Positions 13,740 through 52,304 of a stretch of DNA of 64,000 nucleotides are shown piece after piece (within the stretch, counting starts at the first letter, position 1; each line of letters opens with the position of its first letter). A model generated the notes under the pieces. That model had not been told where the DNA came from. It saw only the letters and a program-made list of their open reading frames with translations, and did no database searches. This DNA comes from Punctularia strigosozonata HHB-11173 SS5 (lineage: Eukaryota; Basidiomycota; Agaricomycetes; Corticiales; Punctulariaceae): positions 268,953-332,952 of the forward strand of contig NW_006767433.1 in assembly GCF_000264995.1 (NCBI RefSeq), given 5' to 3'. A program made the position numbers and the translations under genes.

Positions 13740-14315
13740 TCACTGTGACGAGGCCCATGCGCAAAAACCAACTCCCTCCTTCGGGGGAGTCGGAAAAAAA
13801 ACCTGCATGAAACTTTGACCGTTGTCAGAGTTACTCACAGTATCGCAATCTTCGACGATACCTTCGAGGACGAGCTCCTCGAGCATGCCCGACTCGATAC
13901 CATTCACCCCGGTACATCCAACCAACTTCAACGTGTGGACGGCCAAAGGTTTCTTCGACGCTTGTCTCAACTGACATGAGGCGTGCCCTGGTAGTTGCGT
14001 AAAAACGACTTGTCTAGTGCTCGGGTCGCTCATTCTAAGTGACCATGTACAATGGTGTATGGAGCACGTCATAGAGAACATCCACAAGGGATCCTGATCT
14101 CCGAGGTAGATGATTGCTGCATACCTGAGGGGGGTATCGGCGAAAAAGGCGCGGTAAAAGCCAAATTGCGGTGTACGGAAGCAGCAAGGATCAACTGGAA
14201 GCAGCCGCGGGGGAGCATGCCGCCTCCTACGTGTGGACGCTGGGGAGAGTTCCAGAGAATGAATTTTGAGGCGGAGAATATGGAAGGGGAGCTGGAACAA
14301 TTGATCTGGAATCAC
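13740..14315 (-). pseudogene. Possible F-box/LRR-like remnant
   Basis: A 191-codon open minus frame contains a leucine-rich stretch (VHTLKLVGCTGVN, then LEELVLEGIVEDC) that recalls the repeats following agaricomycete F-box domains. No F-box and no plausible start were found, and the frame stops soon after. It could be a decayed gene or chance. The annotated end codon lies at 13740. Confidence 0.25.
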
Positions 14316-18625: not shown

Positions 18626-20081
18626 TCAGGGCGAGAGGCAGGAGTACGAAGGCGACCCACCGGCTGGAGCGAATCCCATTCGCTGATTCCCAACATCCCA
18701 GACGGAGAACCAATGTTTCAGCAAACTGCCGCCCACGAGTGTCAGGCCCTCGGACCTGTGTCAGAACCAGGTAAGATCCAATCAGATCGACGACGAACTG
18801 GCGGAGGTTACCCACACATTGATCAAGGTCTGGCATATCGTCGGGTCCTGCTCGAACGGGCCCACCGAAAGCTCGCTGCTTGGTATCGTCAAGTTGAACG
18901 CCTTCCCGCTCTGAGCCGTGAACGCGATGTCGATGCTCGCCGGCAGCTTTCCCACCTCCGAACACGGGATTCCGAACGTGCCCGGGAGCGCTGCGAATGG
19001 CTTGATATTCGGAGAGATCAGGGAGTGGATCGCGGTCGCGGTCGCGTTGTCGAAGAGGATGTTTGGCGTGCCACTGTCGAAGATGATCGTGCGCGCCTTC
19101 TTGAGCTGCGACGTCGACTTTCCGTTGACAAACATGCCCGGGGACGCAAGGCGCCAGGTGCCACTCGCGGGTGTCGGGAGGGAGGCGAAAGTGAGCGAAC
19201 CGGTGAACTTAGTCGTGTCCACGCTGCCGAAGGTGAGCGCGGCGTGGCCCTCGGCGGCGGGCGTCAAGAAGAGGGTGAAGAACTCTGGCGGCGCAGGTCA
19301 GTGGGACGCCTTTCAGGATCGGGTTGAGACCTCACGAGAGCCTGTGGGCAGCTGGGTAACGAAGCTGTTTCCCCTCGCGGACATGCCTACGATGACGCGG
19401 GTTCAACTTTCAGTTGCCAATTCAAACGGAGCTGAGTGCGCACCCAGGATTCCATCGAAGGGGTCATCAGCAAACGATGCTGTTTGGTCCGTGATCAACC
19501 CCATCTGCACGCGCTGAACGCTCAGCCCTACGACAGAGACGGTATCCTCTCCTCCATGAAGAGTCAACACGCAGTTGTTGTTGATAACCGGCGTAACGCC
19601 GATGCATGTCGCAAACGGCGCTACGGAAGTTGTACCGAGGTCGACGAACGTGGACGATGCTGCCGGGTTGAACTGGCGTTGTTTTGCGCATGGGGAACCG
19701 CACGCCGTGCTCGGGATCTCGAGGCCGCCACTTCCGGTATCGAAGACAACCTGGTGGGGATGATCAGGGTGCGTCATAGTTTGCCTGCGATGTGCGTACA
19801 TTAAACGTCTGTGGAGGCGTTCCAACTAACCGTTTTCAGTCTCCGAGCTGACAGATGAACATAGATCCACGCTCACCGGAGATATTCCCGAACCATTGCA
19901 AGTCCGTGCCATCGAAATCATCACCTAACGGGTCCGTCCTGTTCGTGCTTTGCCGCTTCGTCAGCTTCGACGTCTTGCGCGACCTCAGTTCGATCGTATG
20001 GTGCACGTCGGACGCAGCCGCCGCCGTCGAGACGAGCAATGCGCACGAGAACCAGCGGGCGGCCGAAGCGAGTCGTGCCAT
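18626..20081 (-). CDS. Secreted A1 aspartic protease (paralogue of 43.8 kb gene)
   Basis: The ATG at 20081 begins a signal peptide (MARLASAARWFSCALLVSTA). A pro-region with a Lys-Arg site (KLTKRQS) follows. The first catalytic motif is VFDTGSGG (near 19735) and the second is IIFDSGTPNIL (near 19085), so both active-site aspartates are present. The last exon (LVGGSLLKHWFSVWD) ends at TGA 18626-18628. Several short introns are needed, including one after LINV near 18805. Pepsin-like A1 enzymes digest proteins at acid pH, here probably outside the cell. It is closely related to the gene at 43776-45347, which lies in the opposite orientation. No C-terminal GPI signal was recognised. Confidence 0.87.
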
Positions 20082-22352: not shown

Positions 22353-24202
22353 TTAGGAGAGCCAGGAGTTCGAGTTCATAATCGAGCGCTCGAGCATGTC
22401 TTCAAGCTGTGCAATGCTCGTGTTGGGATCGAGCTCGAAATCGCCCATATCGAACGTGATGGTATCATCCTGGGGGGGCGTCTCGGAGTCGACGTTACTG
22501 CCGATTGCAGAGGCATTGTTGGTGACATCACCAGCGCGCGTGGCAGACGCGGGGCTGAGGGGTGTGGGGGAGGAGGGATCCACGAGTGTGGACGAGGGCT
22601 GCCTATCCAATACATTTGACGAGAGGTTTGATGGTCCGGCATTTCCGACCGAGGAGAAATCAAGAGTCGCGACTTGGCTAGGTAGTTGACCGAAGTTATC
22701 TCCTTGCACCCCATCGGACGAGGAAGCGACAGCTCCTGAGCCCGCGTTAAGGATTCCGTAGCTCATCAGCGCAGCGTAAAGGGCCATGACATCGGAGATG
22801 CCGAATGCCCCGACGTTATTTACAGGGTTCCAGGTCCCATCCGGCATAGAAGATGCAGGGATGGAGAAGCTGCTGATCGGATGGAGGGGCGAAACATAGT
22901 TCGGGGCGAGGACGACGGGCTGCGGCAAGCCGGAATTGTCGATGAACGGGCCTACGTGCGGAGAGTTGGACGCTTGGGCGGGCACGAGGCCGAGGTTATT
23001 GGGGTAAATGTGGCCATGAAAGGCGTGGGGGGGAGTCGGTATGGTATCGAAGATCGCGGGACTGGTATGAGGGCCGACGTAAGGGGTATGAGGGATATTG
23101 AAAGTTCCCGTCGGCTGCGGAATGAACGCGGTAGGGGTTCGAGGAGCCGTCTGCTGTTGATCTGGTTGCTGCTGGTTGATGGGCCAATACAGCGGTTGGC
23201 CATGCTGGATGAAAGTTTGGGGAGAATGAGAGGGAGTCGCCAAGGGACATCCGAGACCGACCACTCCCTACATGACGGGTAATGATCAGCTTCGAGTAGT
23301 CTCAAGAGCAAGCGACAAAAGCGAACTTGTGAGGCTTCATTAATCGGCTTGGAGACTGGCGCGCTCGGACGAGAAAAGGGTTTGTTCAGATGAGAGCGCT
23401 TCTTGCATTCCCTCTTGGCCTTGCCTTTTTTCTTCCCCACAGTCTTCGGCGGGAGTGGAGGGTGCTGGACGAGTTGCGCGGGCTCAGGCTCGGGATCGGA
23501 GGAAGTGGCAGTGAGAATGGGCCTCGGAAGCACCCTATGTGCTACAGCTATGATCTGCTCCTTCTCGTCCAATGACTTCCTGTTCCAGGTGGTATGGTCG
23601 AGCTCAAAGGCCGAAGCCCAGCCCGCTAGAGAGGAGCCAGCATGACCGCAGTCAACGATGAGCTGCGCAATGGCATCGGACCTCGCGTTCTCGATGGGTG
23701 CAGCCGTTGACCGCTTGCGCTCGGTGACTTTACCGCTCCCAATGCCGGAGCGGAAGGGCGCCTTCTGCTCTTCAGAAAGAGCCTGCCAGCATCGTCCGAG
23801 TATCGAGGAAACCCTACCCAGATTACTCTCCACCTCTGCTGGGATGGTTCTGTATCGGATGTGCGTCATCCGAAAGCGAATAAAGCAGTTCCAATTGCTG
23901 CATTCTTCGAGTGGCAGCGGGTCCGGAAAGGCCGATTGTAGAGAAGGAAGGGACGTCGAAGTCGAAGGCGGGGAAGGGGTAGTGGCTAGCGACGAGGACG
24001 ACGATAGCGTATCGAAGAGCGGGGAGGAGGCATACGGCGAGTCGGGGGGGTCGTCGGTGGCTGAGCGATGGCTGTTAGCCACCGACGTCGGCGTCGTGCT
24101 TGTCGGCATGTAATGCACGAATGTACCGTCGGGATCCAATCTATAGTGCGACAACGCAACTTCAGTGGCTGGCCGAGATCTGGACGGACGAATGGCGGGC
24201 AT
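22353..24202 (-). CDS. HMG-box-like transcription factor 1
   Basis: The ATG at 24202 (MPAIRPSRSRP) begins a protein of two main exons, with an intron near 23275-23335 and a TAA at 22353. A Ser/Pro-rich N-terminus of about 100 residues leads to a degenerate HMG-box (NWNCFIRFRMTHI, then LGRCWQALSEEQKAPF), which keeps the aromatic and Trp core positions. A basic patch follows (VGKKKGKAKRECKKRS), perhaps a nuclear localisation signal. The C-terminal half is rich in Gln, Pro, Ser and Asn and ends acidic (FDMGDFELDPNTSIAQLEDM), resembling an activation domain. HMG-box proteins bind and bend DNA in the nucleus. A related gene lies 1.5 kb to the right on the same strand. The target genes cannot be told from the sequence. 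Confidence 0.72.
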
Positions 24203-25707
24203 TTTGTAGACGCTATGCTATGATGGGCTGCGAGAGCGGGGGCAGAATAGGGGCTTGTCGTGTTGCACGGTGTGCTCGCGTCGGGTAAGGAGGGGTACAA
24301 GATGAAGACGTGTGTCTACGATCGTAATTTAAGCCTCGCGTGTCGCGTGGTCATATTCCTACAGTCCAACTACGGGGCCGATACGCAAAGGAGTGTTGCA
24401 CCCAAGTTGCACCTCCGAAAAGAAGAGGCTTCGATCCTCCTTCCCACGGATGCCGAAGTCGGCGGGACCCCTCCGTGTTTGGACAAATCGCGGCGCGCGG
24501 ACCTGGCGTCCCGCCTCGACCTTCCTTGCGAGCCCCAACAGCGTAAAGTTGCAAGATACGTCTCCGCATATCCAGTGTTACAGGACGTACTTGTCGTGTC
24601 AACAGTAGGAGGGCTCGTACCGGCTACCTCATTTGCAAGGAGTTCGGATCATACCAATGGGAGGGACGCTCAGCCTCGACAATCGTCTTGTCGTTGTCTC
24701 TTCGTTTGGGATAATTTGTGTAAACATAAATGGCTAGGTGCGAGCTTGTGCGGAAGCTCTCTCTACACGCTACCTGCCACAGCAGGAGCTTTACCTCCCT
24801 TCAACCTTGATCGCAGAACGGCGAGTCCCCCACACTGGCCCACAACTCGTTACGTCATTGATCCAGTCTATCATTCATCACGACGATCTTGCTCGTTAGC
24901 GCCGGCCTTGAAGGTGCTCGTCGACGATGCATAAGTTCATCGTTGAGAGAGCATTTACACCATGTCGATGTTTCTTGGTTATTACCTCCAGAGCTCTGCC
25001 ATTTCCTTGACATTATTGGGGGGTCCTCTGCATCGCCAACCCTCATTTCAAAGGCGCAAAGGAGTGACTTCACCCTCTGCCCCATGTCGTTTCACAGCCT
25101 CCAGCGTCTCATTGTGCAAAGAGGAACAATGGAGGACTCTGAGGCGAGCGGAGTTTCAATCCAATGAACAATAGATTGATTGACCTTACAGCTGACTGTG
25201 CGTACGGCATTGTCGGACTTAAAAAGCGACCATGATCCTTAGACGGAGTTCAATTAACGTCGCCGTCAGCCAGCTCCGCGTAAAATTTCTGCTCTCCGAG
25301 TTTATAGGCTCTCTACTGTGCGCTTTATGTACATGTTGGAGCGCAGCGGCGACGCCCCAGCGTTCATGATGGCAATCCTCTCATACAACACAGGATTCTC
25401 GTCTTGCGAGTTCGCTCGCGATTGCATTGAATTGAGATAAGATTACATATTGTACGAAATAAATAGCTATTGCGACGTGTATGATACGATATCCTTGCTT
25501 TGTGTGATCAGTATGTTGTTATACATGTCCATGGTTCGACACTGAACAGCAACCCAGAGATTACAACCAAAGGGCGACCGGCGCGTTCAAATAATGAGAA
25601 TACAGGCACCATGAGAAGTCTTAATCTGAGAGATAAGGCCGCCAGGGCATTGCAGGTGGCTGACATCCGTGCACATTTGTCGTGTCGCGAGGGAATAAAG
25701 CTTCCGC
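24203..25707. other. Intergenic between the two HMG-box-like genes
   Basis: About 1.5 kb with only short frames. It contains the upstream region of HMG gene 1 and the 3' flank of HMG gene 2. Nothing else was recognised. Confidence 0.35.
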
Positions 25708-27431
25708 TTACTGGAGGAGCGTCCACCCGCCACTCGCGCAGTTCAAGCCTGCCGCCCAATCATAGACCGGGCCCGATTCCATCGCATGGAAGGCCCAGTC
25801 CATGTCCACGTCCATATCGGCCCAGGCCTCGCGCGCAGCATCCCCTACAGGCCAGTCCAGATCCAGCTTGGATGCGCTGTCGAAGAAGACGGGCGACGAA
25901 GTAGGAGGAGGAGGCGGAGGAGCCTCGGCCGTCATTGGGAAGACAACGCCCAGGTCGAGGTCGAGACCCAGGGCAGGCGCATCGCCCGCGATTGGTTCTT
26001 CGAAGGGCCCCGGCATCTCCGGGCCGGGAAGCGAGGTGTGGACCTGGACGTGCGGGAGCGGCGGGAGGAGCGCGGGCGCGAGCCTAGGGGCACGAGGAAC
26101 CGGAATCGCGGAAGATAGAGAGGAGACGTCGCGCTCGTACGCGGAATACGGCGCAAAGGTTGCCTGATGTGCGGCCGTACTGAATCCGTCCTGGTCGGGC
26201 GATGCGTGTCCGAAAGCGAAGGACGAAGGCGGGGCGAGGTAGAAAGCGTCCAACGGAGCGATGAGATACGGGTTCGCCGCGAAGCTCTGGAGGTCGGTTT
26301 GGTTGGTCGATCCGAAGGATGGAACGACGGGCGATACGTCCATAGGCGCTGGGGCCTGCATGGCCACGGACACATGAATCGCGGGCACGACATTGTCATA
26401 TTGATGCTGCTGCTGTATCCACTGTAGCGTGCGCCCCGGCTCAGCGAACCCGGTGGACGGAGCCAGAGAGCTATCCAGACGCTCAGCGCCGGGGGAAAGC
26501 TGCGACACAATAAGGATCAAAAACACGCGAAGTGAGCCGCTCGAAGGAACCAACTCACGAAGTCGATTTGTGGAACGCTACTATGAAGACGCACACGCCT
26601 AGCGCGCGCTTTGCCTTTGCATTCAGGCCTGTTAGCTGGAGGAGCGGGTCCGAAGGTGTCGCCGCCGAGTTCCTCGACGCACAGCGACGATAGTCCGTCA
26701 GGCGAAGGGACCAGGATCTGCATCTGCGCGCTGAACGTGTCCGTCCCGCTGTTTCGTACCGCATTTTCAATCTGAGGTGCGGAAAGTCCCAGCAAGATGA
26801 GCCGCGCGATGAGCTGCTCGCGGGGTGAGAGGGGCTGGTGCGGCTTGGATCTACCGCTTCGCCTGCGGGACGCGCGCCGGTTAGCAGACCCGTCGGCCTC
26901 GGAAACAATATCTCCGAGAGCCCTCCTCCACGCCTTGTGCTCGGCCTTGTATCTGGCCCAGTGTTCGTTGTAGAGGGCCTTCTGGTCCTCGGACAGGTCG
27001 CGCCAGACCTGAGCGTAGATCCGCACGCAGGAAGACTCGTCTGTGATGGATTCGGGGATGGGGCGCTGCTGCCGCATGATGACGTTCATGAAGTGGAAAT
27101 AGGTGTTGTTCTCCGGCTTGGACGGCGGGTACGGGGGATCTGGCAAGGCTGCGAGTAGCAGGGGCAAGGCTGCTTTAGGGGAAGAGGGACTGGGACTTGA
27201 AGAGGCAGCGCTGGATGCGACTGAGGTAGGTGGGGAGGTGACGATGGACGATTGGGAAGATAGCGCGTCGAAGAGATCTGCGAGGGGAGAAGAGACATCT
27301 GATACGGTGAGTGGAGTGCCGGAGCTCTCGACATCGGTCAGTTCCGATATATTCGAAGCCGTATCGCGGCGAGGAGAGCTGAAGGTTGGAATGCGCGTTG
27401 CGTAGGACTTCTGTTGGCGTGCAGCAGGCAT
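25708..27431 (-). CDS. HMG-box-like transcription factor 2
   Basis: I place the start at the ATG at 27431 (MPAARQQKSYATRIPTF), because the frame upstream has no better start and the neighbour also begins MPA. Exon 1 ends at 26559, a 59-bp GT-AG intron (26500-26558) follows, and the second exon ends with TAA at 25708. The order of parts matches gene 1: Ser-rich N-terminus, a degenerate HMG-box (NTYFHFMNVIMRQQRPIP, then VWRDLSEDQKALYNEHWARY), a basic stretch (NRRASRRRSGRSK), and a Pro/Ala-rich, acidic C-terminus (WADMDVDMDWAFHAM). The shared layout and strand suggest an old tandem duplication. The box is divergent, so sequence-specific DNA binding is inferred only from the family. Confidence 0.72.
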
Positions 27432-28378
27432 TGAGGTTATAATTGCTGGATCGGCCGGAGACGAGTGATCGTTCGCTGAAGGCGTGGCAGGATCGCAAGT
27501 GCGAATCAGAAACGGCGACGCAGCACCGTTCCTTCGCCGTTTTATGTATCTGAGCGCCCGGAACGAGCAGCCGCTAGCAGTCGCACCTCCAAAGGACATG
27601 CACCACCCAAAGGTGGCAATGGACAAAGGGGTGCCATGGAAGCGCCGATCCACCTTATCGGGCGAGGCTATACAGTGAAGGCCCCAAAACGCCCCCGCCT
27701 CCCGGTGATTTGATAGATTCCGCTGAACGGATTAGGCGATCAATCTGGTCGCCGCTCACGTGCCCACACATTTGTTGTCGCAGCTCGCAAGGCAGATTTG
27801 CTGGCTAGACGTTCATGAATGCGCTCGTAGCGGATAGTAAAGCATATATCAAAGCGACAGCGGCACTCGGACCTTGCCAAAGGAGCGAGAGGTCCGAGTT
27901 CAAAGGGCACAAGCCTCAGCTGGCGACCCCTGCGACCCCCGCAGGCGGAAGCTTGGTCAACAACTTGTCCCGAAGAACTCCCGACTATTATGGAAAATGG
28001 AAGCTTCGCGCTCGTGGGTATGCCTTCTTACCTGTACTCCCTGTTTGCATCCGCAACCAGGATCGTCCTTCTTGCAATATCTTTTCGCTGAACCTGACGA
28101 AAAGCGCTGTGAGCGCATATGTAGCTGTGACGGCAGCGTCGGTCAGCGAGTCAAAAGACCATTCCGGGAGGGGGAGAAGATACGGACCAACTTGAGTTCA
28201 TCCAGGAACGAAGCACGTTGGACGGACATGGCAAGAGGGGAACAGGGACATGACGTCACGATTGTGCTTTCCCTTTGTCCAAGGATAGGCACCTTCAGCA
28301 TCCGCAATCAGTTCATCACTCCAAAAAGTTCCGTATGCGCACCCTCGGTCCGCTCTGCCGATGCGATACGGCGGGGTA
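27432..28378. other. Intergenic, no gene recognised
   Basis: Upstream DNA of HMG gene 2 and unassigned sequence. Frames of 100-200 codons exist on the plus strand but lack motifs and consistent splicing. Confidence 0.35.
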
Positions 28379-29200: not shown

Positions 29201-31218
29201 ATGGTCATCAGCCTTTCTGACGCCACATGTGCGGACTCCGGGTACGATCTTGTGGAGCTCAAGAAGCGGGTCGAAGAGGTCGAGCGGGAATGGTGGTCAA
29301 TGGATCCCGTTGCAGAGGGCCTCCCAAGAGTAACCTGGATGTTCGAGGACGTGAACGCCCAGCATGCAGAGGGGGGAGCGGGGCCGTGGGCCCCAGAGGC
29401 GGTCGAGGGTTCCCCGCAAGAGACGTTCGACCACATCTTCCGGCGCTTCCGCGTTCAGGCGAACAAGAAGTACCGTCACCCGTTCAAGCCCGCGCTCAAC
29501 TTTGATATCATCCGCGACCCAGGCGTTCAAGCGGGGGTCAACGATGAGAAAGGCGAAGGCGCGTCCGAACCGCTCCGCATCGCGTTCGGCGACGCGTCGA
29601 ATTACACCGGCCAGCAGGTCCTCGACCTTTTCGGCGGGAGCACGACACTCACGTACGTTCGCCACGACGACCAGGACGACGCAGACCACAAAATGGGTCC
29701 GCTCTCGTTCCGTCCTTGGGACCGCAAACTGCCCCCATGGTGCACGACTCCCCCTCATTGGATTCCTCCCGCCGTTCCGCCAGGTTATGGTCACGACGCA
29801 CTCACGGACGTGTCAGACGAGTCACAATACGTTTGGCGCGCAGTGCCGACGCTCACCCTCCCGGGACTGGGGAGAAATCTACTTCCTTCGGCCACGTCCC
29901 CGTCCCTCATCGTATCCCACGTATTCGTCGTCGCGTCTGCGACAGGAAAATGCCCTACGCTTCGAGTAGAACTCGGATCCGACCACGTAGCGGAAAAGGA
30001 CAAGCGCGCGCCGACGGCGCTCACCATGCGAGCCATACGGACCCACCTGCTCGGACGCTGGATCCACGCGTCCACTAGCGCTCTGGCGACGAAGGCGTCC
30101 AACGGCGATAACGACGAATTGGCTGAACGCCCAGCGAAGCGTGCTCGCCCGGAGCCAAGTTTGGACAGGATAGGGATCGCATGGGGCTACGAGCCCAGCA
30201 CGCGCCGGTTATATTGCGTTACACTGACCAACGAGGAGTTCGTAGTCGACCTGTCCATCAAAGCCTCCGAAACGTCTTCCAAGTCGGTCGCCAATGCTGA
30301 CTGTCAAAACGAAGGACGGGCGGTCATGCGTTGCGAGTGGATTGGACCGGTGAGCTTAAGTGTGGACAGAAGGGCGATAGCTACCAGGAACGAGTTCAAT
30401 GGTTCCTGTCTCAACGAAGAGAGCGAAGAAGCGTACAATTCATGGCTCGACACATTCTATGGAAGGATCAGGGCATTTCGCGCTTCAAACGATCCCTTCG
30501 TAATAGAGGTGCGTCAATCCGGCATTCGTCGTCTTCTAGAACTCATCCGTTCTCTTGAGCCAGTTGCACGACACGGATTGCTTCGTCGCGGGATGCCTAA
30601 TGCTTGGCCCTCCTTATCACGGGTTCCACTGCACAGTAGAAGCCGCCAAGGCAGGTTCATGGTTAGTCACAGACGTCAACGAGTACTCCACCTCTCGATA
30701 CGAAGAGGAGGGCCGAGACGAAAACGGACACGTCCCCAGGGCCCTATTGACACACTCGGGCAGCACGGAGAGCGAACTCCAGGATATTGCTTGGGAAGAA
30801 GTCGCCTCTTTCTCCGTCTTTGGCGTTTGGTTCCTCCATAGTTTGAACGAGCTTCAGAGGATTGCCTTTGAATCCCGGGATTTGGAACAAGCTCTTGAAA
30901 CCATCGCCCATGGGGCATTCGAGTGGGGGGAAAGGTTACCAGATGGTATTGTTGGTACGTTTGCCTTCGCTGGCAATTCTTCGCGGTAGATTGAAACTTA
31001 CGATCACCCAGTGCACGAAGACCTAGATGACGAAACACGCTACAAAATCCTTGGCAAGAAGGTTGCCGGCGTGTGGGTGCAGCTGAAGGTTATATGTGAG
31101 CAGGGCCGAATGTCCTTGGGCGATGTATCAATGCTCATTCTCTACTTGTAGGTACAGGAGAGCTAGCTCATTCAAATGTTGTATCGCAGGACTCGGATGA
31201 GGAAGGAACCCAAATGTG
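29201..31218 (+). CDS. Array family copy A, two-domain protein of unknown function
   Basis: The ATG at 29201 (MVISLSDATCADSGYD) matches the start of copy B. Exon 1 (29201-30508) encodes a 436-residue domain with family motifs RFRVQANKKYRHPFKPALNF, LFGGSTTLTYVRHDD, GIAWGYEPSTRRLYCVT and RCEWIGPVS. A GT-AG intron (30509-30563) leads to exon 2, the C-terminal domain (DTDCFVAGCLMLG, then FGVWFLHSLNELQRIAFES). A second intron (30955-31012) precedes the short end exon (LGKKVAGVWVQLKVI). The 3' end is uncertain: a further intron near 31096 would extend the protein to a TGA near 31218. I do not recognise the N-terminal domain. The C-terminal domain resembles DUF4241 in layout, but the Asp-Ser-Gly motif seen in copies F and G is lost here. 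Confidence 0.78.
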
Positions 31219-31517
31219 AGATTTTGGCGATCCTGTTTAGCACATGCTACACGTAGACTCGGTTGCGTGTAGGGTCGATACATGCTATTTTCCATGACAT
31301 CACGGTGTGGCTGCCTAAGAAGTGAAAACTGAGTAAATATGCCAAGTGACAAGTATGTTGCTTGTGGCAGGCACAGTGCAAACTTTACATGACGAGTCCA
31401 TTAGATTGTCTCGTTCGTGTTCGACTTCAACTCTAGTTGGCGCCTCCGCGGCCAGAGCCGAGTCGTCCTCCACGCATGGACCGCTGGTGCGGGCGTCCGA
31501 GGCAATACGAAAAGGAG

Positions 31518-31639
31518 TGACGAGAGTGGGATTCGAACCCACGCCCTTTCGGACCAGATTCCAAATGTTATCTGGAAGATGTGTAGCCCTATGCTACTGA
31601 TCCTTAGTCTGGCGCCTTAGACCGCTCGGCCATCTCGCC
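31518..31639 (-). tRNA. tRNA-Leu: tRNA-Leu(AAG) with a 42-nt intron
   Basis: The minus strand folds as a class II tRNA. The acceptor is GGCGAGA paired with TCTCGTC, with discriminator A. The D-arm region is TGGCCGAGCGGTCTAAGG, the anticodon stem CCAGA/TCTGG, and the T-arm GTGGGTTCGAATCCCAC. The anticodon AAG (31603-31605, read on minus) decodes CUU leucine codons after A-to-I editing. The intron at 31560-31601 lies one base 3' of the anticodon, the usual position for nuclear tRNA introns. It sits between array copies A and B. Confidence 0.93.
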
Positions 31640-31821
31640 GTTGAGTTTAGTCGTCAATAGCCAATTATCAATTATTACCAGTCACTGGCGAGCATCGGCC
31701 GAACGGCATTGAGACCTCCGTGAGCGCGCAGGAAGTGAGTAGACCGCCAGTCATGTCCTGTATCCCGATTCATGCTTTGCCAATAAGACGACGACCTGCT
31801 GGCACTTGACTCGAAAAAATA

Positions 31822-33682
31822 ATGGCCATCCACCCTTCCGACACTACTCGCGCACACTCTGGGTACGACCCCGCAGAGCTGAAGAAGCAGGTTGAAGTAG
31901 TCGAGCGCGAATGGTGGTACACGGAGAACGTCGCCGACGACCTTCCAAAACTCACCTGGACATTTGAGGACGCGAGTGCGCAGCACGCAGGGGGAGTGGA
32001 GACATGGACATCTGAGGCGGTCGAGGGCTCCCCGCAAGAGACGTTCGACCGCATCTTCCGGCGTTTTCGCGTTCAAGCGAACAAGAAGTACCGTCACCCG
32101 TTCAAGCCCGCGCTCAACTTCGATATCATCCGCGACCCAGGCGCTCGAGCCGAAGCCAACGACGAACCGGGTGAAGACGCGTTGAAACCGCTCCCCATCG
32201 CGTTCCACGACGCGTCAAAGTACACCGGCCAGCAGATCCTCGACCTTTTCGGCGGGAGCACCACGCTCACGTACGTTCGCCACGACGACCGGGACGGCGA
32301 AGAACACGCGACGGGTCCTCTCTCGCTCCATCCTTGGGACCGCGAACTCCCCCCATGGTGTACGGCACCCTCTCATTGGCTCGCCCCCGCCTTACCTCCG
32401 GGTTTCGCGGACGAACAAACTGGCTTGAAGGAGATCCCAAAGGACCAACAATACAACTGGCGAGCGGTGCCGACCCTCGCGTTTGCAGGATCAGGGAACC
32501 ACATTCTTCCGTCCGCGACGACACCCTTGCTCATCACAACCCACGTCTTCGTCGTCGCGGGTGACCGACCCTCCACGTGCGCGTTTCAAGACCCCGACTT
32601 CGACCACGTCTTCAAGAAACACAAGCGAGCGCCAACAGCTCTCACGACTCGCGACGTGCGCGGCCAATTGCTCGGATGCTGGATACAGACGTCCACCGAC
32701 CCTCTGGAGCCGCGCGGCGACGAACGGCCCGCCAAGCGTACGCGCAAGCAGGCATCTTCGAAAAGACTAGGCATCGCGTGGGGATATGAGCCCAGCACGC
32801 GTCGGCTGTACTGCGTCACCCCTGCGAACGAGGAATTCGTCGTCGACCTGTCTGTCAAAGCTTCCGAGGCCTCTTCTTCCGACGGCGCCGAACGTCCCGA
32901 GGTCGTGTACTGCGAGTGGATAGGACCGGTTGGCGTGAGAGCCGAGGGCGAACCCGCGGGCAGCAAACGCGATACATCTGACTTCGGTTATGGGAACTAC
33001 AGCGCTTGGCAGGATAAGTTCCTTGACGAAATCGATAAACTCGGAGAAGGGGATCATCTCAAAAACTCGTATCGGTTGGAGGCGAGTAACGCTCAATATG
33101 AATCTTGCAAACGCTCATAATGTCCGCAATGTAGATTAGCCACACCGACTGCTTAGTCGTCGGAGGTCTGGCCATTGGTTCTCCTCGTCAAGGTCTGGAT
33201 CATGTCATAGAGGGACTCAAGACCGGCCCGTGGGTGGTAGCCCAGCTCGAACAAGATGACGACGCGTATTATGAGAGCGACAAGAGTGCTGAAGGCAGTA
33301 ACGCCGGAGGCGAGGTCGTCAAGCTCGTCTTGCAGCATTCCCACATCGTGGAGGATGACCTCCAAGCCGTTCCCTGGGACGACTTGTTCTCGTTCACGAC
33401 TAGAACGGGGGTCTGGTTCGTCTACAGTCTTTGTGAGTTAGAACGTATCGCAGCGGAGTCGGCAGACTTCGGAGAAGCCCTGGGATGCGTCGCCGATTGG
33501 GTGATCGAATCCGAGAACAGGATGCCGGGTGGAATCGTCGGTGCGTCCCTCGTGCCTTGCGGATACCGCTCCTTAGCTTATTCGACCTTATGGAAGTGCA
33601 CGAAATGGAGCTCGACGCCGGCTTCAAGGTCTTGGGAAAGAAGGTAGACGGTTTATGGGTTCAGCTGAAGGTCATCGGTTGA
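31822..33682 (+). CDS. Array family copy B, two-domain protein
   Basis: The ATG at 31822 (MAIHPSDTTRAHSGYD) begins a 583-residue protein. Exons are 31822-33081, 33135-33540 and 33597-33682. The first intron (33082-33134) begins GC (GAG|GCGAGT) and ends TAG; splicing there is required because the frame would otherwise stop at once. The second intron has a GT donor. N-terminal domain motifs match copy A closely, including RFRVQANKKYRHPFKPALNF and GIAWGYEPSTRRLYCVT. The C-terminal domain reads TDCLVVGGLAIG, then TGVWFVYSLCELERIAAES, and ends GKKVDGLWVQLKVIG. The high similarity to copy A in the first 150 codons indicates recent duplication or gene conversion. Function is unknown. Confidence 0.82.
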
Positions 33683-34219
33683 GTATGCTTTCTTCCTCGC
33701 GTCGGGGTGAACCGTCTGACTCTCATGTGCACGGCTGAAGGTTCGGAATATCAGCACGCATAATCCGTTCGGCGGATTAGCTGAACATGATTCCATCAGC
33801 GGTGACGACTGAGCTATCATATGTGGCATTGTCGGGACTTCGCCAGGAACCACCAATGCTAGTTGTTTGTGAAAACGTGCCGGCGAGTCAAAGTGCAATC
33901 ATACAATCTTGCGTTACACTACGTAGAAATTGAAGTACACCGACGCGCGTGCAAATTCCTACTCCTAACGTGACACGGCCTTCTCTTCGCGAATACGACC
34001 CTAGCACGATTCACTACCCGTTGCTCCGCAAGCTGTCGAGGATGACTTCCGGGCCAAGACCTGAAATGCAATCCCGATTGTATGATCACGTCGCGGTCCT
34101 CGAGAACGGCTTACACGTAAATCGACGGACCTCGTTTTTCACTGTCTCTCCAGCCCTCTCTCAAACTTCTCCCATCACCCTCGTAAACAGCCTCGAGCTT
34201 CCGACGAACTGGTGAACTG
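33683..34219. other. Intergenic between copies B and C
   Basis: Non-coding spacer of 537 bp, probably the promoter of copy C. No gene recognised. Confidence 0.4.
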
Positions 34220-36084
34220 ATGTCGACGGCTATGGATGCGGTTGCCTATGCGAGAGTGAAGGAGCAAGTCGCGGAAGTGCAGAAAAGCTGGTGGTCGGCT
34301 GTAATGGACTACGAGGAGGACGCTACACGTGTCGGATTGATCTTCGAGGACGTGAGTCCCATGCATAACGGAGAGGATACGGAGACATGGACTGCCGAAA
34401 CCGTTTTCGCAACTGCGCAGGAGACCTTCGATCGCGCGTTTCAGCGCTTTCGCGTCCAAGCCAACAGGAAGCATCGTCATCCCTTGAAGCCCGCGCTTAA
34501 CTTTGACATAATCTACGAGCCTCAGGGAGTACCTGAACCACGTCGAATTGCATTCGGCGACGCGGCCAAGTACACCGTTCAGCAGGTCGTCGAACTATGC
34601 GGGGGAAAACCGACGCTCACATACGTCCGCGAAGACGGTCCGCACCCTGAACACGACAAGGGCCCCATCGCACTTCCTCCATGGGATCGTACGCTCCCTT
34701 CTTGGTGTACCACTCCGTCCCATTGGATCGTACCGGCAATACCACCCGGCTATGGAAGGGAGCTTGGAACGAAGCTCGATTACGAGGCGACCATGTACGA
34801 ATGGCGCGCGGTTCCTACGCTCATGCTTCCGGGACTTGGACATACCATCCTCCCTCATACGACTACTCCTTCGCTTATCGCCTCTCATGTGATGCTACTG
34901 GCAGCTTCTACGCCCTGGGGGCATGCCTTCGTTTCACTCCGCGCAGATGACCTCAAAAAGGACTATGTCCAAACCGCCGACAAGCGCTCGCCGACGACAC
35001 TCACAACGAGGGAAATTCGCGCCATCCTCTTGGGGCGTTACGTCCAGGTTTCCACTCGGACTCTTGTCCCGGATGACGCGGAAGCCGACAACAATGATCG
35101 TGCTCGCATATCGCCGACGCAAGACAAGGTTGGTATCGTCTGGGGCTACGAACCCTCGACACGTATGCTGTACTGCGTGACACCCACGAATGAGGAATTC
35201 GTCGTCGACTTGTCTGTCACGATCTCGAACGCTAGTGGCGCCACCCCCCAGCCGCCGATGCCCCTTCGACCCGCAGGCAGAGAAGTCGTGCGGTGCGAAT
35301 GGATCGGGCCAGTCACCATCGAGCTTGACAGGAAGACAGGGACTCCAGGGCGTATAGGATATGCCCGGTTAACAGCATCCATGAGCCAGGCCTTCGATGA
35401 GTGGCGGGACAAATATAACGAGCTCGTCCAAGAGTTCAACCCCTCCGACCCCTTCGGCCTCGAGGTCAGTAGGTTGTCATCCGGAATACTGAGTGCGTCC
35501 GACTAAAGAATTGATCATACCTCAACGTCGCTGTCCAGATTATCCCAAATGACTGCTTGGTGATTGGAAGCCTTGACATCTCGGACCATGTTAACTGGGG
35601 GCTGGAACACACCATCGAAGATCTTGAAACCGGCTCATGGACGATCAGTAACGTTAGCAGTTCCTGGGACGACGAGGATGAGGACGAGTCCTCGCCGAAA
35701 GACTATGCCCTTCGAGCTTCGCTGCAGCATGCGGATGTTGACGAGGGCGAACTCAGTGCCGTCGCCTGGGAGAACATCGGCTCGTTCGGAGTAGACAGCA
35801 CATGGGTCATTCATAGCCTCCATGAGCTCCAGAAGATGGCTTTCGAGTCAGGAGATCTGGACGGGGGCTTGGAAAACATCGCGATGTGGGCGGAGAATTC
35901 TGCATTGTTGCGATGGCCCGGCGGTTTCATAGGCAAGTTCACGTCCGATCCTCCTATATCCACATGCCTCACCGAGATCTGTGCAGTCAACGAAGGCGAA
36001 TCCATGCATAAGTATTATATCGCCGGGAAGAGAGTTAACGGCGTCTGGGTTCAGTTACGAGTCATAAGTTGCGTGCTCCTCTGA
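34220..36084 (+). CDS. Array family copy C, two-domain protein
   Basis: The ATG at 34220 (MSTAMDAVAYARVKEQVAEV) starts a 578-residue protein with exons 34220-35464, 35539-35932 and 35987-36084. Intron 1 has a GT donor. Intron 2 (35933-35986, 54 bp) has a textbook GC donor, AG|GCAAGT, at the same place where copies A, B, F and G have GT. It is stop-free and a multiple of three, so an unspliced message would still be translated. The N-terminal domain includes FRVQANRKHRHPLKPALNF, LPSWCTTPSHWIVPAIPPGY and VWGYEPSTRMLYCVTPTNEE. The C-terminal domain reads NDCLVIGSLDISD, then VDSTWVIHSLHELQKMAFES, and ends GKRVNGVWVQLRVI plus a few residues. It shares the domain layout of the family. Function is unknown. 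Confidence 0.82.
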
Positions 36085-36512
36085 GATTTTCGATGGCAGA
36101 GTATCTGACTGTACATTCCTCTATCAAGCCCGGTCATGGGGCAACTCGGATGACCTGGAGCAGGAATAGGGACATCACAGAGCTTGCAGTACAGGTCGCT
36201 GAGCTAAATGCGGTCGGGGACACCGCGTTGATCGTATCATTTTGCGTTCATCGACCACTGAAGGAAAAGTAGAGCTTTCCCTCATGATGGTGGCCGTTTG
36301 TTCCCTGGGCGACTGCATGAAATATGTTGGTGAGTTTAAAAACGAATGCCTCCTGACGATCTCATGGAGAGAGCCCCATGGAATCCATGTCGTTGTCGGG
36401 GTTTGGGCGGTTGCCGCGGACATACGTGAGCGTGGCCTTGCCTTTGAAGAGGTCGATAACCTGTGTACTTCAATGCATCGCTGAGCGTTATCCGATCAGG
36501 TTTCCCGCGTCG
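36085..36512. other. Spacer downstream of copy C
   Basis: Non-coding region between copy C and the inverted fragment. No gene recognised. Confidence 0.35.
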
Positions 36513-36860
36513 TTACCTGTGTTTGGCCTCCATGGTTTGGCCTTGAACACAGGGTGCCGATTTTACTTCGTAGACTACCTCGAACTTGAGCGCAGGCCGG
36601 AAAGGATGCCGATGTTTCTTGTTTGCCTGGACGCGGAAGCGCTGGAAAGCGCGGTCGAGGGTTTCCTGCACGGACGCCGTAACCGTCTCGGCAGGCCACG
36701 TATTCATTTCCACTCCGTGAAGCTTCAAGATCACGTCCTCGAAAGTCAGGGTGACATTCGCGTCGTCCGTGTGCTCCGGGAACCTCCACTAGCTCGCTTG
36801 AATCTCCGCGCTGTGCGCCTTGGACTCCTCATACTCCGGATCCGCGCTCAACGGTGCCAT
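36513..36860 (-). pseudogene. Array family copy D, inverted N-terminal fragment
   Basis: On the minus strand an ATG at 36860 opens MAPLSADPEYEESKAHSAEI, then a TAG occurs where other copies have the conserved Trp of a G-W-W motif. The homologous frame continues with VTLTFEDVILKLHG, then RFRVQANKKHRHPFRPALKF and breaks off after about 110 residues. It is therefore a truncated host pseudogene lying opposite to its four neighbours, probably from an inverted duplication. Nothing of the rest of the gene is seen. Confidence 0.75.
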
Positions 36861-37476
36861 TGAAAGTAGCAGAGTAGAGATGCTCTTTCGAAGGGAGGAG
36901 ACACGGAAGCTACCACAGAGGTCGTCAAGAGCGGGAGGAGCTGCAGGGAACGCCGTTTACGTATAAGATCGCCAAACGACGCCAAGTCACAAGGCTTGCT
37001 CAATTGCGACTCACAGTCGTCCATGCAAGATAAGTATCGGTCATTCGATTTTCAAGCGTGCAACGTGATAACAGAGATATGTGTAATAATGAAAGATGAA
37101 GTCCTCTTCAATGCTGCAAAGCCTGTAAGTTACGACTTACGGTACGAACGAACCTAAAATAGAACAGACCTGCCGCATTTGGTATGCCCCTATTTAGCTA
37201 ACTGTATTTAGCTTCCTCTCGCTGCATACAGCGCAAGGCTCAAGCCCTATGAGTCTGACTCTGCACCGAGGGACGCTCACCTTGCTACGTTCTCACCGGC
37301 GATTTGTGCAATTTATCTACCATGGTCATCCCCTCGGAGAAACCGGCGACAATCTCGGCTGCGTTACACGTAAATTTCGAACGAATGACCCGCGTTCCCA
37401 AATTTCACCATCGGGGTCCAACAGCTAGCTTCCTCCCGACTAAACATAACCGTGAACTCGGCCTCAGTCTACTCTA
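36861..37476. other. Spacer upstream of copy E
   Basis: About 616 bp without a gene, more AT-rich near 37080-37210. It probably includes the promoter of copy E. Confidence 0.35.
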
Positions 37477-39529
37477 ATGGCGATTGTACCCGATGTAGAT
37501 TCATACGCGAAGCTGAAGGAACATGTTGCGGGGTTACAAGCGGGCTGGTGGTCGGGCGTCGAGGACAGTCAGGGTGACGATACCCGTACCATCTTGACGT
37601 TCGAGGATGCCAGTGCAAAACTTTGTGGAGAAGGGACGGAGACGTGGCCCGCTGGGACGGTTGTCGCATCCGCGCAGGAGACCTTCGACCTCGCGTTTCA
37701 GCGCTTCCGTGTCCAGGCGAACAAGAGACATCGTCACCCCTTCAGACCCGCGCTCAACTTCGATATTGTCTATCAGTCCGAGTCAGCCTCTGCGACTCCG
37801 TCCAGGGCTGACGAGGGACAGGAGAACGCTACAACCCGTATTCCATTCAGCGACGCGTCCAAGTACACCGTCCAGCAAGTCGTCGATCTCTTTGGGGGAA
37901 TACCCACCCTTAGCTACGTTCGCGACGACTCCGCGAATCCGGAGCACGACAAAGGTCCCATCGCGATCTCTCCGTGGGATCGACAGCTCCCTCCCTCGTG
38001 TTCCACCCCAGCACACTGGATCGCTCCGTCTATACCTCCGGGCTTCGGACAATCTAGTTCAGAATACAGATCGACAGGGATCGCTTACGAATGGCGTTCT
38101 GTGTCAACGCTGGCCCTTCCTGGATTGGGTAGCACCATTCTGCCCACCACCACGGTCCCGTCGCTCATACCTTCCCACCTCATACTTCTGGCGAGTGAGA
38201 CATCCTGGGGCTATGTCCCCGTTTCCCTCCGCGCACAGGGGGACTATGTCGAGGCCTCCGACAAGCGATCGCCCGTGGGGCTCACCACCAGAGAGATCCG
38301 CACATCCCTCCTTGGCCGATACGTCCAGATCTCCACGCGCCCTCTCGCGGCGACCGCGGAAGCGGCGATCACCGACACCAAGGAACCCTCCATCAAGTCT
38401 ACGCACGCGTTACTGGCAAGCGATAGACTCGGCATGGCATGGGGCTTCGAGCCAACGACACGCATGCTATACTGTGTCACACCCACCAACGACGAATTCG
38501 TCGTCGACTTGTCCACTGCAACGTCTGACGTCGACGCCAAGTCCGAATCGACGACCGATACCCATGCTTCCAACCCCAAAATCGTGCGGTGCGAGTGGAT
38601 CGGGCCGGTCAGCATCGCCGTCGACAGGGAGACGAGATCGCGCAGGGCGGAGGAACGCTGGGATTATCGTGGCGACGAGCGCTCGTACATTGGGAAAGCC
38701 GACAAAGACTGGGTCAAAGCGTTCTGGAAGCGAGTCAAACTTCTGAATGACTGGCCCAGGAAGCCCTTGATTGTCGAGGTTGGTCCGGTTGGATCTGTTT
38801 GATGGGCTAAGCCCGAGGCTTACACCTCTCCAACTTCAGATAACCAAGAGCGACTGTCTAGTGGCGGGGGAGCTCGATCTTATGGACCTTGAATGCTGGG
38901 GGCTGAAGAGCACCATAGAGGATCTGGCCCCTGGTCCATGGCTGGTGACCTGCCTAAACGAATGCGAGATCATCGAAGAGTATATGAACGACGATAGCGA
39001 GGACGAAGATGAAGAAGAGATCCGTCATGTCAGCAAACCACAGAAGCGAGACGTAGTCAGAGCCGCCATGCGAAACACGGACATCGGCAAGGACACCCTC
39101 GAGACGGCCACCTGGGAGCCTGTGACTTCCTTCACCGCCGACTATGACCACTGGATGATCTATAGCTTGAACGAGCTCCAGAGGATGGCCCTTGAGGCGA
39201 CGGACCTGGAATCGGCACTGGAGAACGTCGCGGAACTCGCAACGGAGGAAAATACAAAGTTTCCTGGCGGGGTAGTAGGCGCGTCCATCTCAGGTTCGCG
39301 TATTCGTATGACTCACCTGTCATGGTCCGCAGTGTACCAAGACCATGACGCACGTTTTCAACGCTTCGACGTAGAAGGCAAGAAGGTCAACGGATCGTGG
39401 GCTCAGCTTCGGATCATAGGTACAGTAGCACTCCTTAAAAGATATGGATGCGGAACATCTGATCCTTGTTGGCCTAGGCATAGACATGAAGGAGCGAGAG
39501 GATTGATCCCTCGCGTTTGGTCACTGTAA
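37477..39529 (+). CDS. Array family copy E, two-domain protein
   Basis: The ATG at 37477 (MAIVPDVDSYAKLKEHVAGL) begins a protein of about 645 residues with exons 37477-38778, 38840-39278 and 39333-39529. Intron 1 is GT-AG. Intron 2 (39279-39332, 54 bp) starts GC (GTAG|GCGCGT) and, as in copy C, is stop-free and in frame. N-terminal motifs include FRVQANKRHRHPFRPALNF, LSYVRDDSANPEHDKGP and AWGFEPTTRMLYCVTPTNDE. The C-terminal domain has a long acidic insert (DDSEDEDEEEIRH). It ends GKKVNGSWAQLRIIG, then a tail of about 36 residues not seen in copies B and F, so the true 3' end may lie earlier. Function is unknown. Confidence 0.8.
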
Positions 39530-46992: not shown

Positions 46993-49222
46993 ATGAATCC
47001 CGCCTCGCGCCTTCTTGCAGCCAGTCTAGCAATGACGGCGGTCGCAGTTCCGTACGAGCAGTATATCTTGGCGCCCTCCAATCGTACGTTACACCCCGTG
47101 TCGGTCTATGGGGTCAACGGTACTGTTTTCAACGCCGAAAGCGTCATTGGCGGCGAACAGCTCGGCAACGCGACGTTCGACGGTCCTTCGTCCGTCACTT
47201 TCGACTACGGCAAGAACATCGCTGGCGTCGTCACCCTCGTCATCAGAAACGTCTCTGACGAAGACCAGTTCGTCGGCATCACGTTCTCAGAGAGCTCTCT
47301 CTGGATCTCTAGTGCGGGCAGCGATGCCACCGGCGGCATCGCCATCGACGACACGCTATGGATTCAAGCTCAAACCCCCGGGGTATACACGGTACCCAGG
47401 CAAAACGAGCGAGGCGGGTTTCGGTACCTCAGCCTGATTCACAACACCACGGGGACGTTGGACCTAGCCCGGGTGACCACCCAGTTCACCGCGATGCCAC
47501 ACTACGCGGAGGATCAGCTCAGGAATTACTCTGGTTACTTCCACTCCGACGGCAAGCATGCATATATCCACGATCTGTGGCTCTCTACTTACATTATACT
47601 TGTAGATGAGCTGCTCAATCGGATTTGGTACGCGGGTGAGTGAGCCATCGACGGTTGTTGTCTACACCGTTGCTGAACACGCAACCAGGCGCATACACGA
47701 ACCAACTGTGCACGATCGATCCACATTACGGCGATGCCGTTATACATCCCGCGAACGTCGACAGCGCCGGTACCCTGCAGTGGTGGCTGAACATTACTAT
47801 TTCTAATGGCACCTCCGTGCTGGTCGACGGCGCCAAGCGCGACAGGCTTGTGTGGGCCGGCGACATGTCCATCGCCGTGCCCAGCATTGTCACCTCGACG
47901 AATGACCTGGTATCCATCCAGAACTCCCTCAACTCGCTGTTCGCGGTTCAGGACAAGACCAGCGGTCAGCTGCCGTACGCCGGCCAACCTTTCCCCCTCA
48001 TGCTCTCGCAGACGTACCACATGTATACGCTCATTGGCGTCGCGAATTACTACTTCTACTCGGTAAGTCGGTTTCACAAACTCGGGGATCCTGCTGATAC
48101 CTTTGTAGAACGACATCGAGTATATCGTAAACATGTGGGACGATGTCAAGCTCGCCGTCGATTTCGCCCTCAGCTTTGTCGATGATAGTGGCCTGATGGA
48201 CGTGACATCTCCCAATGATTGGCTGCGATATGGAATGGGCGGGCACAACATCGAAGTGCGACCTGCCTCACTCCTAAACCTCCTCCGACCAACTCTGACA
48301 TCTCGTGCAGGCAAACGCGATCCTATACCACACCTTGAACCAATTGTCGTCTGTGGCCGCCATCCTGAACGAAAGCAGCCTCGTAGCATCGTGGGCCCAG
48401 ACTGCCTCCACCCTCAAGTCGTCCGCCAACACGCTCCTCTGGGATCACTCCGCCGGGATGTATCGCGACAACGAGACGACGACGCTCCACCCCCAAGACG
48501 GCAATGCCTGGGCCGTTGTCGCCAATCTTACCCTCAGCGCGACCCAGTCCCGCTCCATCAGCTCCAACCTCGCCGCGCGCTGGACGGCGTACGGCGCCCC
48601 GGCCCCGGAGGCGGCCGACGCGATCTCGCCCTTCATATCCGGCTTCGAGCTGCAGGCGCACGTCCTCGCGGGCAACGTCAGTGCCGCGCTCGACTTGATG
48701 CGCCTCCAGTGGGGGTTCATGCTCGACGACCCGCGGATGACGAACAGCACGTTCATCGAGGGCTACTCGACCACCGGCGCGCTGCATTACGCGCCGTACA
48801 GCCTCGACGCGCGTATCAGTCACGCGCACGGATGGGCGACTGGGCCGACGTCAACGTTGACGTTCTTGATCGCTGGGATACAGCTAACGAGCGCGGGCGG
48901 GAAGACGTGGTTGATCAAACCTGGCCTCGGAGACTTGGCGAGGGCGGAAGCAGGGTTCGTGACCAGCCTTGGCAGTTTCAGCGTCAATAACACGAGGGAC
49001 GCGGATACGGGAGCTTTCAGCGTGGCGTTTGAGACTCCGGAAGAGACGAGCGGCGCCCTGAGTGTGGAGTATCCGGACTGCGACGGGACACTAACCCTGT
49101 CACGATCTGGACAGGAGCGGCTTGTCTTGAACGTGAAGAAGGATGACGCGCCGGAGGGGCGCATCGAGCTTGATGGATTGGATGGGGGTTCCTGGCAAGC
49201 GGTCTTCACTTGTTCGTCATAA
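46993..49222 (+). CDS. Secreted GH78 alpha-L-rhamnosidase
   Basis: The ATG at 46993 (MNPASRLLAASLAMTAVAVP) encodes a signal peptide. The N-terminal beta domain includes FDGPSSVTFDYGKNIAGVV. The catalytic (alpha/alpha)6 region runs from RIWYAGAYTNQLCTIDPHYG through RDRLVWAGDMSIAVPS and FELQAHVLAGN to HGWATGPTSTLTFLIAGI, with a C-terminal beta domain after it. These are GH78-type landmarks; the enzyme removes terminal alpha-L-rhamnose from plant glycosides or pectin side chains. Introns are at 47552-47605 (GC donor, 54 bp, stop-free), about 47636-47690, after YFYS near 48063, and after GHNIE near 48260. The stop is TAA at 49220. It is about 660 residues long, typical for fungal GH78. A deleted partial duplicate lies at 51.4-52.3 kb. 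Confidence 0.88.
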
Positions 49223-51403: not shown

Positions 51404-52304
51404 GAGCAAGAGGTGTTTGAGCCACCGCGTCACGCCTGCGGTCAGCTGCCGTACGCCGGCCAACATTTCCCCCTCATACTCTCGCAGACGTACCACATGT
51501 ATACGCTCATCGGCGTCGCGAATGACTACTTCTACTCGGTAATTTGATTTCACAGACTCGGGGATCCTGCTGATACCTTTGTAGAACGACATCGAGTATA
51601 TCGCAAACATGTAGGACGATGTCAAGCTCGCCGTCGATTTCGCCCTCAGCTTTGTCGATGCTTTTGGGCTGATGAACGTGACATCTCCCAATGATTGGCT
51701 GCGATATGGAATGGGCGGGCACAACATCGAAGTGCGACCTGCCTCACTCCTAAACCTCCTCCGACCAACTCTGACATCTCGTGCAGGCAAACGCGATTCT
51801 ATACCACACCTTGAACCGATTGTCGTCTTTGGCCGCCGTCCTGAACGAAAGCAGCCTCGTCGCCTCGCGGGCCCAGACTGCCTCCACCCTCAAGTCGTCC
51901 GCCAACACGCTCCTCTGGGATGACTCCGCCGGGATGTACCGCGACAACGAGACGACGACGCTCCACCCCCAAGACGGCAACGCCTGGGCCGTTGTCGCCA
52001 ATCTTACCCTCAGCGCGACCCAGTCCCGCTCCATCAGCTCCAACCTCGCCGCGCGCTGGACACCGTACGGCGCCCCGGCCCCGGAGGCGGCCGACGCGAT
52101 CTCGCCCTTCATATCCGGCTTCGAGCTGCAGGCGCACGTCCTCGCGGGCAACGTCAGTGCCGCGCTCGACTTGATGCGCCTCCAGTGGGGGTTCATGCTC
52201 GACGACCCGCGGATGACGAACAGCACGTTCATCGAGGGCTACTCGACCACTGGCGCGCTGCTCTACGCGCCGTACAGGCTCGACGCGCACATCAGCCGCG
52301 CGCT
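51404..52304 (+). pseudogene. Partial duplicate of the GH78 gene with internal deletion
   Basis: From about 51438 to 52304 the sequence closely copies 47962-48820, including the intron positions. It covers QLPYAGQHFPLILSQTYHMY through the region ending TTGALLYAPYRLDAHISR. About 35 bp before that (51404-51443) instead match the DNA upstream of the GH78 start codon (near 46853-46892). The two blocks meet at GCGGTC, which occurs at both source positions, so about 1.07 kb including the signal peptide exon was lost. A TGG of the original reads TAG here. The copy has no start and no C-terminus and is a host pseudogene. Confidence 0.88.

Follow-up and report, generated by a model that had tools for sequence, protein, structure and literature searches.

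A 64,000-nucleotide stretch of the genome of Punctularia strigosozonata HHB-11173 SS5 (assembly GCF_000264995.1, contig NW_006767433.1, positions 268,953 to 332,952 of the forward strand; hereafter the window) carries a small paralogous gene family which, judged from its sequences, evolves by birth and death. We tentatively favour, at somewhat less than even confidence, the reading that the proteins of this family combine a ubiquitin-like N-terminus with an acidic domain related to DUF4241 and act by binding a ligand. An intact gene would give rise to a protein of ~580–645 amino acids (aa) composed of three parts: a ubiquitin-like module, a conserved central region between this module and intron 1, and, encoded downstream of intron 1, an acidic domain of ~160 aa that would be a distant relative of DUF4241. 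The parts before and after intron 1 are designated domain 1 and domain 2, respectively. By analogy with immunity proteins that bind toxins, the acidic domain may sequester a protein ligand by means of a binding face that varies, and the N-terminal part would couple it to other proteins.

A six-frame listing of the window and tblastn searches in it served to locate the copies, and spliced models were built for A, B, C, E, F, and G (Table 1). An earlier note on this DNA had described four full copies (A, B, C, and E) lying head to tail with an inverted fragment D and a tRNA gene among them, and this arrangement was recovered throughout: tblastn and the spliced models placed all four copies on the plus strand, D appeared as a domain-1 match on the minus strand with stops inside, and the tRNA gene was recognized by Rfam. 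The remnant that the note had placed elsewhere in the window was found by tblastn, and of the two further copies it had named, F is full length, but G comprises only domain 2 and ~30 residues of domain 1. The five full copies share 41–55% pairwise identity over 544–591 aligned residues of the spliced models, the closest pairs being A-B (55%) and C-E (51%), and G and F are 50% identical in domain 2. The ratio of the proportions of nonsynonymous and synonymous differences (pN/pS, Nei-Gojobori method) was 0.42–0.56 for domain 1 (10 pairs) and 0.41–0.61 for domain 2 (15 pairs, G included), hence in 25 pair-by-domain comparisons overall; synonymous change was mostly saturated, least so in domain 1 of A and B (dN 0.28, dS 0.85). 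Given this identity and a pN/pS of 0.41–0.61, the similarity between the five full copies is not due to chance. Conservation is lower in domain 2 than in domain 1 for all 10 pairings of full copies.

Table 1 Members of the gene family and the tRNA gene in the window
Feature	Position	Strand	Structure	Evidence
Copy A	29201-31151	+	exon 1 29201-30508, exon 2 30564-30954, exon 3 31012-31151	tblastn and spliced model, 612 aa
Copy B	31822-33682	+	introns 33082-33134 (GC donor), 33541-33596	583 aa model; stop from six-frame listing
Copy C	34220-36084	+	introns 35465-35538, 35933-35986 (GC donor)	578 aa model
Fragment D	36833-36353	-	inverted, between C and E; domain 1 only	in-frame stops; tblastn E 2.4e-35
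Copy E	37477-39529	+	introns 38779-38839, 39279-39332 (GC donor)	645 aa model
Copy F	54931-53057	-	full length, both DUF4241-like patches kept	591 aa model
Copy G	49954-49428	-	domain 2 (156 aa spliced); domain-1 end upstream	tblastn; one end by arithmetic from spliced model
Domain-2 remnant	13999-14094	+	96 bp, 32 aa, 53% identical to C	tblastn E 1.8e-7
tRNA gene	31518-31639	-	intron-bearing, between A and B	Rfam RF00005, 48.8 bits

A genome-wide search (33.6 Mb) that used E and F as queries for domain 1 and C and G for domain 2 recovered the copies of the window, a pseudogene with stops and frameshifts on contig C12, and an 18-residue scrap on contig C4, with two further weak matches on contigs C1 (E 0.05) and C5 (E 0.34). 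The pseudogene copy (L019:2717-4246) is 76% identical at the DNA level to positions 31494-32989 of the window, the tRNA gene included, which was thus duplicated together with B; the C12 copy of the tRNA scores 48.6 bits, and its halves are identical to those in the window, whereas the tRNA intron has diverged. From its sequence the tRNA looks like a leucine tRNA; ARAGORN in its bacterial setting missed the gene at 31518-31639. The C4 scrap (L110:1430-1487) spans 58 bp, 57 of which are identical to copy A (30174-30231), and apart from a 14-bp match its surroundings are dissimilar to the window, so that by sequence it is a recent micro-copy of A. It is these inverted, frameshifted, shortened, and scattered pieces next to intact genes that argue for birth-and-death evolution.

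The splice sites of the family were placed by homology, without transcripts, and two introns are conserved in the resulting models. Intron 1 (phase 0, 50–74 nt) lies between the domains, in agreement with the fixed intron that had been proposed to separate them, but it is not the single one, since a second conserved intron (phase 1, 49–57 nt) lies inside domain 2 just 5' of the second of two sequence patches discussed below and thus splits them. Three of the 11 modelled introns have donors other than GT, namely intron 1 of B (GCGAGT), intron 2 of C (GCAAGT), and intron 2 of E (GCGCGT). Background usage of GC donors is about 1–2%, compared with which the frequency resulting from the donors at 33082, 35933, and 39279 is high, and splicing of the family may therefore be relaxed or regulated. 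If retained, intron 2 of C or of E (54 nt each) would leave the reading frame intact.

When single sequences were searched against Pfam, NCBIfam, PDB, PHROGs, and PADLOC, nothing credible emerged for the family, the queries for PHROGs and PADLOC being limited to domain 1 of C and F and domain 2 of F, with domain 2 of G added for PHROGs. A two-domain duplicated family that escapes recognition, as had been claimed, is thus supported for the libraries scanned, and "undescribed" is justified in the sense of absent from these libraries and from the literature searched. NCBIfam matches of copy C to ABC transporters (E 0.0015 and 0.0017) were treated as noise. A domain-1 profile reached at best E 0.099 against PDB, domain 1 of C gave no match at E ≤0.1 among plasmids and phages, and a scan of viral contigs with domain 1 produced 102 pattern matches, none of which was confirmed. 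Matches of domain 1 in six of 394 actinomycete genomes (E 6e-5 to 5e-4, one genome each, covering residues 2 to at most 115) were likewise treated as noise.

The structure of domain 1 was modelled with AlphaFold2 from five sequences, with a mean predicted local distance difference test score (pLDDT) of 41.8; 10-residue blocks within residues 31–140 reached 52–81, and the centre (~140–415) was too poor for use. When the N-terminal part of this model was compared with PDB by Foldseek, 46 of the best 50 among 493 matches had what we take, from their titles, to be ubiquitin-like folds, including the C-terminal domain of RING1B, the adaptor-binding (ABD) and Ras-binding (RBD) domains of phosphoinositide 3-kinase (PI3K), the ubiquitin-like domain (Ubl) of USP7, plexin, and the PB1 domain of Cdc24; the best E-value among the matches listed was 4.6e-3, and none was ≤0.001. 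The fungal model aligns with the beta-grasp fold of RING1B, PI3K ABD/RBD, and USP7 Ubl, but it does so with low to moderate model confidence and without sequence similarity between domain 1 and these proteins. An N-terminal ubiquitin-like (beta-grasp) module of about residues 31–140 is therefore supported but not proven, and we regard it as a lead. In 19-residue windows, mean hydropathy never exceeded 1.55 in either domain and no membrane segment is suggested; the protein is probably cytosolic.

With such a module, the family might consist of ordinary intracellular adaptors or regulators, linked for example to the ubiquitin pathway, which were duplicated neutrally and have no role in conflict. 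This is a serious, if rather doubtful, possibility. The Foldseek lead is in keeping with it, and both the purifying pattern in every pair computed, without any sign of positive selection, and the lack of a PADLOC match speak for it. Local duplication with many broken copies and the less conserved C-terminal domain, on the other hand, suit a changing partner, while being compatible with an adaptor as well.

The relationship of domain 2 to DUF4241 (PF14025), a family annotated as protein of unknown function, forms part of the reading that we favour. Two motifs, VD[SA]G and SG-[WY]-GDG-x-Y, were taken from DUF4241 member sequences, and the earlier note had assigned V-D-S-G-C-W and G-D-D-G-G-Y patches to the whole fungal family. 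These patches hold for F and G but are no family-wide trait: V-D-S-G-C-W occurs in F and G only, and the second motif, represented, with intron 2 spliced out, by SGNDGGF in F and SGDDGGY in G, both lacking the W/Y-G step, is absent in A, B, C, and E. The DUF4241 alignment comprised 85 rows, of which 59 were left after dropping short and redundant ones, 26 of them long. Scored end to end against a profile, F, G, and C were each reached by none of 1000 shuffles (C by three of 1000 with a second profile), and the open reading frame (ORF) segments reaching the score numbered 0/1518 for F, 0/1511 for G, and 2/1498 for C, these decoys being stop-to-stop frames from bacterial and viral loci, many of which are not real genes. 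The scoring was performed by a script of our own, in which deletion of the first column incurred a fixed entry penalty. With both motifs masked a residual signal persisted, its score being attained in 15 and 36 out of 1000 shuffles. hhalign was run in four settings with 200 column shuffles each, of which 0, 1, 0, and 0 reached the six-copy score. In the two families the motifs are colinear in order and spacing (G-x-[WY]-x-V, W-E, VDSG, SG-x-DG-x-[YF]), length and strong acidity are comparable (isoelectric point 4.1–4.7 for domain 2, median 4.1 across the 26 long DUF4241 rows), and the C-terminal position in a longer protein recurs in several actinomycete ORFs. The fungal proteins differ in their N-terminal part, in being encoded by spliced eukaryotic genes, in lying below Pfam detection, and in having lost most of the SG-x-DGG patch in A, B, C, and E.

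Several results weigh against this relationship. The Pfam profile search that had been proposed as a check, run with four domain-2 stretches and with the spliced domain 2 of F and G, returned no DUF4241 match even at E ≤10; the significance sought was thus not attained. Copies A, B, and E were reached by 13–112 of 1000 shuffles in the end-to-end test, the signal is concentrated in the motifs, and the hhalign probability was borderline at 12% or less, and 0.2% with a shallow profile. The tests were also chosen stepwise, a shallow profile test having failed before deeper ones were applied; all are reported here. In further searches, no DUF4241 match was found in a six-frame scan of the genome, a DUF4241 member gave no relative in PDB, plasmids searched with domain 2 of G gave no match, and a scan of viral contigs with a Nostoc DUF4241 protein confirmed none. 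The structure model of domain 2 was too unreliable for use (mean pLDDT 35.7). The missing Pfam match, the low hhalign probability, the concentration of signal in the motifs, and the lack of support for A, B, and E speak for a fungus-specific family without a true tie to DUF4241, in which convergence would account for the acidity and for the VDSG and GDGGY patches; in view of the shuffles and ORF segments beaten by F, G, and C and of the colinear motifs, we consider this rather unlikely. The proposed C-terminal resemblance thus stands as a remote one for F, G, and C by end-to-end profile, but not by Pfam nor for A, B, and E alone. These comparisons support, without proving it, a distant kinship of domain 2 with the DUF4241 of bacteria and phages, with F and G as the best-preserved examples. 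A beta/gamma-crystallin-like domain, suggested by the likeness of V-D-S-G-C-W-x-L-Y to a gamma-crystallin motif, by weak Pfam Crystall matches of F (E 0.13 and 0.14), and by gamma-crystallin chains among the profile matches in PDB (E ≥0.18), is most improbable and was rejected, since the matches are not significant, the best stretches cover just 14–27 residues, and V-D-S-G-C-W is limited to F and G. A domain-2 profile match to a circular repeat protein in PDB (E 2.2e-7) is likely a repeat artefact, with no single stretch passing alone.

In the literature searched, no paper using the name DUF4241 was found, and text matches to "pf14025" look by their titles like other identifiers (Plasmodium/malaria, Giardia). 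Seven plasmid records with DUF4241 were examined, six of them annotated and one, from Subdoligranulum, without annotation. On the Nostoc plasmid pn2 (L108, 1-7845), a 13.5-kb gene with immunoglobulin (Ig) domains is followed by two DUF4241 genes and a Tdi1-type immunity gene of the type VI secretion system (T6SS). This arrangement resembles a toxin-immunity island, and by this neighbourhood DUF4241 may be an immunity domain. The contexts in Rhizobium, Dyadobacter, two Streptomyces, and Tsukamurella have no clear toxin link; one Streptomyces plasmid carries two DUF4241 genes near each other. Eight viral contigs (L022, L028, L034, L037, L054, L056, L069, L070) encode short proteins that match DUF4241 chiefly over its second half, from VDSG onward, the profile match starting at ~84–90 in six and at ~151 in two. 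In actinomycete ORFs (L091-L094, L099, L100; stop-to-stop frames), DUF4241 is C-terminal after ~240–300 other residues.

Duplication, pseudogenes, acidity, and the one bacterial gene neighbourhood suggest, without proving it, a role of the fungal family in recognition, defence, or immunity. The fuller proposal, that an acidic DUF4241-type inhibitor domain of bacterial origin became joined to the C-terminal side of a ubiquitin-like module and that the fusion was then duplicated and diversified into a eukaryotic counterpart of polyimmunity loci, appears quite improbable. Tandem homogeneous polyimmunity loci, e.g., of SUKH, are described in PMC3482391, which also reports that no fewer than 13 toxin domains have been transferred to fungi, where SUKH immunity domains occur as well. 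The family resembles such loci in that diverged paralogues encoding an acidic, probably cytosolic protein lie in tandem, but it has no Pfam match to SUKH, SuFu, or Imm immunity families at E ≤10, and no toxin partner is known in the genome. Fungal NOD-like receptors (NLRs) also expand by birth and death (PMC10197012); they share with our family the lineage-specific expansion of paralogues and C-terminal variability, but Pfam finds in the latter no repeat domain and neither of NACHT and NB-ARC, by which fungal NLR/STAND proteins would be recognized.

Other duplications are present in the window. An 869-bp duplication with 96% identity (47959-48827 and 51435-52303) adjoins G with one copy and F with the other; its reading frames resemble a glycosidase by eye, and a Pfam scan of two of them gave no match. 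An inverted duplicate with 72% identity (18653-20014 versus 45233-43843) includes a Pfam aspartyl protease match (18785-19297, minus strand, E 8.3e-13), and two minus-strand ORFs (22955-24217 and 26520-27731) with sub-threshold high-mobility-group (HMG)-box matches (E 0.0037 and 0.0062) are perhaps another local pair.

Should the link to DUF4241 fail, the family would still be a clear example of birth and death in a fungal family unrecognized by the libraries scanned, in which one duplicate carries a tRNA gene and several splice donors are GC. If the link is true, DUF4241, whose members encountered here all come from bacteria and viruses, would extend to a spliced eukaryotic gene family, which would add to the domains of bacterial conflict systems that PMC3482391 reports in fungi and would offer several gene copies with which the ligand of this uncharacterized acidic domain could be sought.

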